Assembly: GCA_030836535.1 (NCBI GenBank)
Contig: JAURPT010000148.1
Location: forward strand, 1-48,897
Direction of reading: 5' to 3'
Length of the DNA stretch: 48,897 nucleotides
From: Alphaproteobacteria bacterium
Lineage (GTDB): Bacteria > Pseudomonadota > Alphaproteobacteria > SMXS01
The notes beneath the pieces are model-generated. The model saw only the letters and a list, made by a program, of their open reading frames with translations. It had not been told where the DNA came from and made no database searches. The translations under genes were made by a program, and so were the position numbers. Position 1 is the first letter of the stretch; the number at the start of each line of letters is the position of its first letter. Below are positions 23,509 to 25,810 of the stretch, one piece after another.

Positions 23509-24366
23509 CTATTGCCGTAGCATTTCATGCAACATTAGATCGATACTGGCGCTGTATTGACCCTTTCTCTTGAGCCAGTGAAAGGCGGCAAGGTACAGAG
23601 GCAAGGCATCAGTGAATTCTGACCAGTTTACGCCTGCTGCAGCTACCAGTTTTTTGGTGGCGAGGTGATGTTGACCGGTTTCTGACAGATAGTCTTTCGT
23701 CAGGGTTGGGCGGTCGAAGTTGGCCATCGACGCCAGCAATGTCGCCATATCGAAGCCCGGCAGGTCAACGAGGCCATAGTCCTCCCAATCTAGAATGAAT
23801 GGCTGTGTGTCCTGAAGGTGTCCCAGATTATTGATGGTAAAGTCGCCGTGCTGGGCGACACGTTGCTGCAATATGTGGCCGGGCTGGGCAAATACGTTGT
23901 TCCATTTTTCGACGAGGTGGGGATGCGTAATCTCAAGAAAATGGTAAAGCGAAGGACGGTCTGCGTGGGGGCTTTCAGGGGCATTTTCGTAGAAATGCTT
24001 TATGAGCGTTAGCCACTTCCGGGACAAGGCCGTGGGTGCGCCCCCCTGGCTGTAGGTGAGGGTAGTAAATTCTTCGAATCGCAATACCAGGAAGGTCAGT
24101 CCCTGTTGGGTTTCAAGGGCAAAGGACTTTGACAGGTGGCCACCCAGAATGCCGGACAAGCGGTTTAAGGCATTCAGCTCCCTTTCCAGACTGTCGCAAT
24201 GGCCTGCAGAATCCGCTGCGCTAACCTTAACCACGACAGGCCCCAGGGGAGCGACGTGGCAAAATGCGCTCAATTTGTGCCTCCGGACCAGTTGCCAGAC
24301 ATCAACGGCCGCGCCATTTTCAGCAAGGCCGGTTCGCACCAGTACTTTTGTTATCTCATAAATCAT
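23509..24366 (-). CDS. APH/choline-kinase-like phosphotransferase
   Basis: 285 residues from the ATG at 24366. Kinase features: Lys47 in PVVVKVSA (ATP lysine), Glu in SLERELNALNRL, catalytic loop QHGDFTINNL (His173-Gly-Asp175) and metal-binding ILDWEDYG (Asp193). The family phosphorylates small molecules such as aminoglycosides, choline or sugars; the substrate here is unknown. The start overlaps the stop of the gene upstream in ATGA, so the frame extending to 24450 is rejected. Third gene of a coupled operon whose first gene is a broken methyltransferase. Confidence 0.8.
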   Translation of the reverse strand: MIYEITKVLVRTGLAENGAAVDVWQLVRRHKLSAFCHVAPLGPVVVKVSAADSAGHCDSLERELNALNRLSGILGGHLSKSFALETQQGLTFLVLRFEEFTTLTYSQGGAPTALSRKWLTLIKHFYENAPESPHADRPSLYHFLEITHPHLVEKWNNVFAQPGHILQQRVAQHGDFTINNLGHLQDTQPFILDWEDYGLVDLPGFDMATLLASMANFDRPTLTKDYLSETGQHHLATKKLVAAAGVNWSEFTDALPLYLAAFHWLKRKGQYSASIDLMLHEMLRQ

Positions 24367-25010
24367 GGCCTGTGGACCATTGTGAACGTATATTCCTGCA
24401 TCCAGTGAAACAGGCCTAAACAGGCAAGCAGGTGCCGGAGTGGAATCCATCGTCGTGGTTCCTGCCGTTTCATGACGTCCAGCACCAGTCGGTAATGCCC
24501 GCTATCCAGCCGACTCAATCGTGATGAGCCTTCGTCTCGCCCTTCCCAGGCCCAGATGGTGATCGCCCCGGGCAAGGATGCAAGTGCCTTGCGCAGGCCG
24601 CCATTTGTCGCAAGGCACCCGGGGCGTTGCTGGCTGGCGATAATCAGACACCCCTGTTCACCTGTATGGTTAAATGCGGCATCGACCAGTGTCGCCATAT
24701 CAGTCTGCTTCAACCCGTCCAGAACCTGGGGCATGATGATGGTGCTGGCACGTTTTGGGACTGTGCTATGCAGGTTTGCCTGGTGTTCTTTAACAATGTT
24801 GAAATCAGGTAGCGGTGACCAGTCTAATGCCGGGCCAACCATCGGCTGCGCACCAATATAGGTGGCGGTCAGTTCCTTATGCCAGGGGGCAACGCCAAGC
24901 ATGATATGTGCGGGTGTGCCTTCCGGTCGGTCGAATACAGTGATCAGTTGCGCGTCGACCGGGAGAAGAGCCAAAAAATGTCCCAGGCTCCTGTCATTCC
25001 AGGGTTTCAT
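24363..25010 (-). CDS. protein of unknown function in a methyltransferase/kinase operon
   Basis: 215 residues from the ATG at 25010. No family recognised. Mixed alpha/beta sequence: FLALLPVDAQLITVFDRPEG, a GAQPMVGPALDWSPLPDF turn, MATLVDAAFNHTGEQGCLII, and a C-terminal helix-rich part with RRWIPLRHLLACLGLF. The start overlaps the methyltransferase stop (ATGA) and its stop overlaps the kinase start (ATGA), so it is the coupled middle gene. The longer frame to 25154 lies inside the methyltransferase and is rejected. Confidence 0.65.
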   Translation of the reverse strand: MKPWNDRSLGHFLALLPVDAQLITVFDRPEGTPAHIMLGVAPWHKELTATYIGAQPMVGPALDWSPLPDFNIVKEHQANLHSTVPKRASTIIMPQVLDGLKQTDMATLVDAAFNHTGEQGCLIIASQQRPGCLATNGGLRKALASLPGAITIWAWEGRDEGSSRLSRLDSGHYRLVLDVMKRQEPRRWIPLRHLLACLGLFHWMQEYTFTMVHRP

Positions 25011-25810
25011 GACGCTGAACGGGCTGGCTTGGCGACAATTATCGTGTCGAGCGCTACAGAGGACATCCATGCCATGCGACATAGGCGGTCCAACGCCCGG
25101 CCTGCAGAGCTGTTCCAGACACGATGGTTTAGACAACGGTGCAACGCCACCCAAACCCCGATAGGGACGCGGCGCTCAATACGATAGCCTGCGTCGGCTA
25201 ATATCTTGTCCAAATCCCGTGGATCCAGATATTACCCTTTTTTCGGCGTGCGGCGTGCCAACAGGGAGCGTGGATTCCGATGGTTGTTGATGATTAAGAG
25301 CCCATTGTCTTTGAGCAAGGGCTGGAGGGCTCGAAGAACGTCGGACCTAAGCTATTCCTGGGCATTGCCAAAGAAACGGAATGTTGTAATCAGGTCGAAG
25401 GGGGGCTCGTTGAGTGTGTCCTGGGTGATGTCGGTGAGACGAAAGTCGACCGCGCAATTTGCCTTGGACATCTTGTCCCGCGCGGCATTGATCATGTTTT
25501 CTGAAACATCCACGGCGATGGTCGTCTCGAACAGCGGTGCGAAGATGGACAGAATGCGCCCGGACCCACAGGCAAAATCAAGATAGCGCGATCGGTGACC
25601 GGTAAGGTGCCTGTCGAGCAGGGCCGGCAGTAGGTCTGCCTCTCGACTAGCCATATATTGATTTAATCCCCCGTCGCTCAGGTCGCTGTCATAGTCCGCA
25701 CCTTTCTTGTCCTGATGGCTTTGGCGATAGTCAGCTTAGTTCAGTTTGGTGCGTCTCGAATTGTTCTTCAGCAGCACAAAAAGTTTAGCGTTACTGGTGC
25801 TATAGGTCAT
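25007..25810 (-). pseudogene. class I SAM methyltransferase interrupted by three in-frame stop codons
   Basis: Reading one frame from the ATG at 25810 to the TGA at 25007-25009 gives 267 codons with TAA at codon 25 (25736-25738), TAG at codon 153 (25352-25354) and TAA at codon 193 (25232-25234). Between stops the protein is coherent: RQSHQDKKGADYDSDLSD, YLDFACGSGRILSIFA (SAM motif I, residues 76-90), TIAVDVSENMI (motif II), FDLITTFRFFGNAQE, LRALQPLLKDNGLLIINNHR (post-motif), YLDPRDLDKILADAGYRIER. No frameshift is needed anywhere. Residues 53-152 form the longest open part and might be called as a fragment. The end overlaps the next gene in ATGA, showing it once headed this operon. Confidence 0.78.

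Follow-up and report, generated by a model that had tools for sequence, protein, structure and literature searches.

Within the analysed window, a stretch of 48,897 nucleotides from an alphaproteobacterial assembly, the minus-strand frame running from 25810 to 25007 is very probably an ordinary, young methyltransferase pseudogene, inactivated by point mutations within a three-gene module. The frame comprises 267 codons including stops at codons 25, 153 and 193 (TAA, TAG and TAA) and is free of indels, exactly as a sequence-only reading of the window had described it, and among the explanations which that reading had put forward, the one with most support is decay solely by point mutation. On the minus strand the translation reads MTYST...N*ADYRQSH...AQE*LRSD...KKG*YLDP...RSAS* (asterisks marking stops); the methyltransferase gene is absent from the translated plus strand of 25007-25810. 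Set against intact orthologues, the lesions are inactivating: two internal stops and no usable start, with the frame open in all 19 orthologues. According to the explanation favoured here, a class I SAM methyltransferase gene that heads an overlapping trio, whose other members encode an unknown protein and an APH-type kinase, would have suffered point mutations, probably recent ones, that lost or blocked its start and placed two nonsense codons within the catalytic domain, with the outcome that functional enzyme would not be produced.

Reading frame, fold and start region

The Pfam Methyltransf_25 match of the frame (E=4.8e-14) indicates that its resemblance to a methyltransferase is not due to chance; the match to the family profile reaches E=1e-93, a figure that is partly by construction, since the window's own row was in the profile. 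The read-through frame carries the SAM motif YLDFACGSGR, and its predicted structure, read through from codon 27 and built on an alignment of the window with 11 of 20 relatives, has a mean pLDDT of 85, with E. coli CmoM (8joz; TM 0.76, 19% identity) as the top PDB match. Taken together, the frame when read through is predicted to be a class I SAM methyltransferase with a Rossmann-type fold and a glycine-rich SAM motif. Every NCBIfam model stayed under its cut-off (best 49.7 of 180 bits), and none therefore assigns a substrate.

The conserved part of the pseudogene (25007..25732, minus strand) extends from codon 27 to the terminal TGA and contains two internal stops. Aligned with the 19 orthologues, the reading frame is unbroken from codon 27 to its end, the length differences being whole codons (+1, +4 and -4) and the tail about three codons longer. 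The terminal TGA overlaps the ATG of the next gene, and the ATGA junction that had been proposed there is indeed found, at 25010. The description of the frame as one coherent SAM methyltransferase from its start holds from codon 27 to this junction; it does not extend to codons 1-24, which lie 5' of the point where homology begins.

These codons, together with the TAA and a following GCT, form a leader (25733..25810, minus strand) that differs from the remainder in several respects. Conserved homology starts at codon 27 with DYRxSH, present in all 19 orthologues with one S-to-V change, and an ATG stands immediately 5' of the counterpart of codon 27 (25732-25730) in five of them and also in the more distant relative L089, while the putative start of the remaining orthologues probably lies some 2 to 24 codons further upstream. 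In the window, the codon before the conserved region is GCT, itself preceded by the TAA, and between that TAA and the ATG of codon 53 (25654-25652) there is no in-frame ATG, GTG or TTG. GC content at the first codon position of the leader is 0.28 (25 codons, a modest sample), compared with 0.53-0.71 in 27 gene frames of the window. Because homology begins at codon 27, five orthologues carry an ATG immediately before it and the composition of the leader departs from that of coding sequence, codons 1-24 are probably not part of the gene and the start at 25810 is doubtful. The TAA of codon 25 (25736..25738, minus strand), which lies just 5' of the conserved region and blocks any in-frame start upstream, is therefore more plausibly one element of a lost or blocked start than a mid-protein stop, leaving two nonsense codons inside the gene.

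Of these two, the TAG of codon 153 (25352..25354, minus strand) occupies a variable column two positions past the invariant FRFFGNAQ, at the start of a helix in the model, and the TAA of codon 193 (25232..25234, minus strand) falls in a variable stretch that is modelled as a lower-confidence loop. The stops delimit pieces of the frame, such as codons 53-152, that had been suggested as products made separately, and the ATG of codon 53 does open a 100-aa frame that includes the SAM-binding motif. However, such a fragment would be missing the conserved DYRxSH segment at the N-terminus as well as the strands, encoded past codon 153, with which the modelled fold is completed, and it would leave unexplained why invariant columns are retained on both sides of the stops, which makes a separate functional protein extremely improbable.

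Conservation, decay and decoding of the stops

A pattern scan of one genome per species across 84,980 species returned 25 loci; the scan used exact short peptide patterns and may omit records near the window's own genome, so that closer relatives are possible. Full-length orthologues account for 19 of the 25 (34-40% identity) and derive from Nitrosomonas, Accumulibacter, Sedimenticola, Burkholderiales and a few others, the six partial loci L051-L056 (25-30% identity) having been excluded as non-orthologous. In all 19 the frame runs uninterrupted from the conserved start as far as the gene's own terminator, including in L043, which was scored intact with its terminator 18 bases short of the end of the tblastn match. 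Screening 384 other genomes of the class at E 1e-12, an even sample of the larger class with no more than six candidates scored per genome, added one more distant relative, L089, whose frame is likewise open. Matches in 40 relatives, the window's own genome aside, were weak (best E 1.1e-8, 23-45% identity over parts) and were set aside as other methyltransferases. The window's own assembly (2.68 Mb, 96% complete) yielded no second full-length match. At codons 25, 153 and 193, for which a comparison of orthologues had been proposed, a stop occurs in none of the 19 and not in L089.

Residue conservation in the interrupted frame is high. Of the 40 columns that are invariant among the orthologues, the window keeps 39, the sole change being T to S in the SAM motif. 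Where L089 is added and columns conserved at 90% or more are counted, 5 of 55 are changed in the window, against 2 of 43, 4 of 45 and 3 of 44 in the isolated intact orthologues L039, L043 and L050, 5 of 47 and 6 of 47 in the pair L037 and L045, and 19 of 53 in the distant, open L089. At 80% conservation the counts are 14 of 74 for the window and 10 of 69, 10 of 68 and 9 of 69 for the same three isolated genes, placing its rate of change at or slightly over their range. Simulations of neutral decay on L039, L043 and L050, halted at the second or third nonsense codon, lost on average about 5-7 of the 40 invariant columns by the second (probability of losing at most one, 0.07-0.18) and about 7-11 by the third (0.02-0.07); for the columns conserved at 90% or more, at most five changes occurred with a probability of 0.31-0.53 at the second nonsense and 0.12-0.36 at the third. 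Conservation is thus somewhat high for the number of stops, yet within chance, and neutral decay is mildly strained. The codon-usage score of the frame is 0.033, that of the intact third gene of the module 0.021 and those of the other two frames -0.07 and -0.22; GC at the codon positions shows nothing unusual for the window. That GC3 and codon usage are still gene-like counts, as does the high conservation, against a pseudogene. Conservation and codon usage fit a recent inactivation, short of proving relaxed selection, and the best protein identity to any orthologue, about 40%, is too distant for dN/dS.

The same conservation, nearly that of intact genes, would also be expected if the true gene were intact and the stops had arisen by sequencing or assembly error or from a minority strain allele in the consensus, and the assembly is a draft of 183 contigs. 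This explanation is nonetheless unlikely: on general expectation, three independent substitution errors each yielding a stop within about 500 bases are improbable, the conserved region would have no usable start directly 5' of it even without the TAA, and the genes for the release factors, at other places in this assembly, show normal reading frames.

A second alternative holds that the stops are decoded or read through, yielding trace amounts of full-length enzyme from a gene still under selection. Retention of 39 of 40 invariant columns is in keeping with this, as is the position of both internal stops at sites that tolerate many residues, and bacterial genes with in-frame stops and dN/dS below 1 are described in the accessible part of Belinky et al. 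(PMC7918605). Against it, the stops are absent from every orthologue, and a blocked start followed by two serial stops would be expected to cut leaky output to almost nothing. We consider readthrough very unlikely, and give the same low weight to a related variant in which the frame, its partners being intact, is still selected as a switched-off or trace-expressed allele through readthrough at a low rate, frequent reversion or a suppressor that escaped detection.

The decoding apparatus of the genome gives the same picture. ARAGORN typed all 40 tRNA genes of the assembly, and none of them, in a set that is near-complete, has a stop-reading anticodon, so that the suppressor tRNA proposed earlier as a check does not appear among them. 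tRNA-Ile(GAT) is missing from that set, perhaps lost with an rRNA operon in the draft assembly. Both release-factor genes are present: prfA is free of internal stops, and prfB (L101) has a single in-frame TGA (about 1503-1518, within AGGAGG...CTTTGAC), which we take to be the usual programmed frameshift site. TAA, which makes up two of the three stops, is recognised by both release factors. The 27 genes of the window, this one included, end in TAG (12), TAA (9) or TGA (6), TAG being the commonest; since the genes were picked for being open, the absence of internal stops from them is a consequence of that choice. There is no indication of stop-codon reassignment, and programmed readthrough, which would show as a stop conserved in orthologues, finds none among the 19 or in L089. 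With release factors in place, TAA and TAG serving as ordinary terminators and orthologues without the stops, suppression or readthrough, which had been listed among the options, is unsupported.

The initial interest of the frame lay in the absence of frameshifts, on the ground that decay usually includes indels. That premise is true; as evidence it is weak when only two or three lesions are at issue. With assumed indel-to-substitution ratios of 0.02-0.15, and with 2-5% of random substitutions in these genes creating stops, nonsense would account for both of two lesions with a probability of 0.02-0.54 and for all of three with one of 0.003-0.40. In the Salmonella set, as given in the accessible part of PMC2916853, premature stops are responsible for 131 of the 346 single-lesion pseudogenes, which is why indel-free decay says little, and an altered start codon accounts for two. 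Multiplied out, that proportion gives about 0.14 for two stops and 0.05 for three (PMC2916853). Multi-lesion pseudogenes are scarce there (32 of 378), and most of the pseudogenes show little or no accelerated divergence, according to the same portion of the text (PMC2916853). In a scan covering many pseudogenes, stops without a frameshift are unremarkable. The available text of Belinky et al. (2021; PMC7918605) describes in-frame stops as common in bacteria and mostly short-lived, and a young lesion therefore also fits; the expression of pseudogenes in endosymbionts is the topic of a further study, as far as its accessible part indicates (PMC13345370).

Gene neighbourhood and wider meaning

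The window order is methyltransferase, 215-aa protein and kinase, with ATGA overlaps throughout. The second gene (24363..25010, minus strand) is open, matches no Pfam or NCBIfam model, and overlaps the third through a further ATGA, at 24366. The third (23509..24366, minus strand) encodes an APH-family phosphotransferase of 285 aa from its ATGA start, with HGDxxxNN and DWED intact. That the downstream partners are intact, as had been stated, is borne out by the lack of stops in either and by the kinase keeping 16 of 17 invariant columns in an alignment of 14 of the 16 loci with a match, the short or weak matches of L039 (E=1.7e-5 over 60 residues) and L050 (E=0.007) being excluded. Following loss of the methyltransferase, the downstream pair may now be translated via weak or internal initiation. 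A promoter and terminator scan gave 0 and 1 sites, under the shuffled means of 1.8 and 3.0.

A recurring gene group accompanies the FRFFGNAQ methyltransferase: a homologue of the APH-type kinase lies nearby in 16 of the 19 orthologue loci, a gene of about 240-260 aa, here termed X, in 13 of 19 (query loci included), and a flippase-like gene in five of six loci tested. In those six, Pfam assigned the gene beyond to the flippase-like Polysacc_synt_3 in L032, L035, L041, L044 and L048 and to SecD in L050; no kinase match was obtained at L035. Among the other neighbours, tested in L033, L036, L038, L040 and L045, none was flippase-like. Loci such as L037, L044 and L045 share the order methyltransferase, X, kinase; L032 and L033 begin with X, followed by the kinase and then the methyltransferase, and the X of these two may belong to another family. 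Near the L089 methyltransferase, an APH-type gene lies on the opposite strand.

The second gene of the window is the positional counterpart of X, the link being one of position, with a profile score of 3.4 bits; modelled alone, it gave an unusable structure (pLDDT 34). It has no homologue in the 384 other genomes of the class (an even sample of the larger class), and the third gene has none in the nine other genomes of the family. In the window, the module is flanked by genes for an MFS transporter and a Rieske oxygenase, with no flippase. Judged from neighbouring genes only, the module may act in the modification of surface polysaccharides or of related compounds.

As a pseudogene, the frame has little importance past annotation. 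The case illustrates that stops without frameshifts are weak evidence of readthrough, and it draws attention to a methyltransferase and a kinase that are conserved as a pair, frequently joined by a third gene and, at some loci, adjacent to a polysaccharide flippase; the family models used here gave this pair no function name. Should readthrough occur after all, it would be a surprise for a single gene to have three such stops in the absence of a suppressor tRNA.

Likeness to known systems

With the class I SAM methyltransferases (Pfam Methyltransf_25, 31, 11 and others), the window frame has the fold and the Pfam match in common; it differs in its interrupting stops and in reaching the cut-off of no NCBIfam model. 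The young pseudogenes described by Kuo and Ochman (2010), in the accessible part of that study (PMC2916853), are likewise inactivated by point mutation, show little accelerated divergence and have intact orthologues, but usually carry a single lesion, whereas the window gene has three and no close orthologue for dating. The in-frame stops of Belinky et al. (2021), as presented in the available portion of that work (PMC7918605), similarly stand amid conserved residues; its focus is on stops common to at least two species, whereas those of the window occur in no orthologue.
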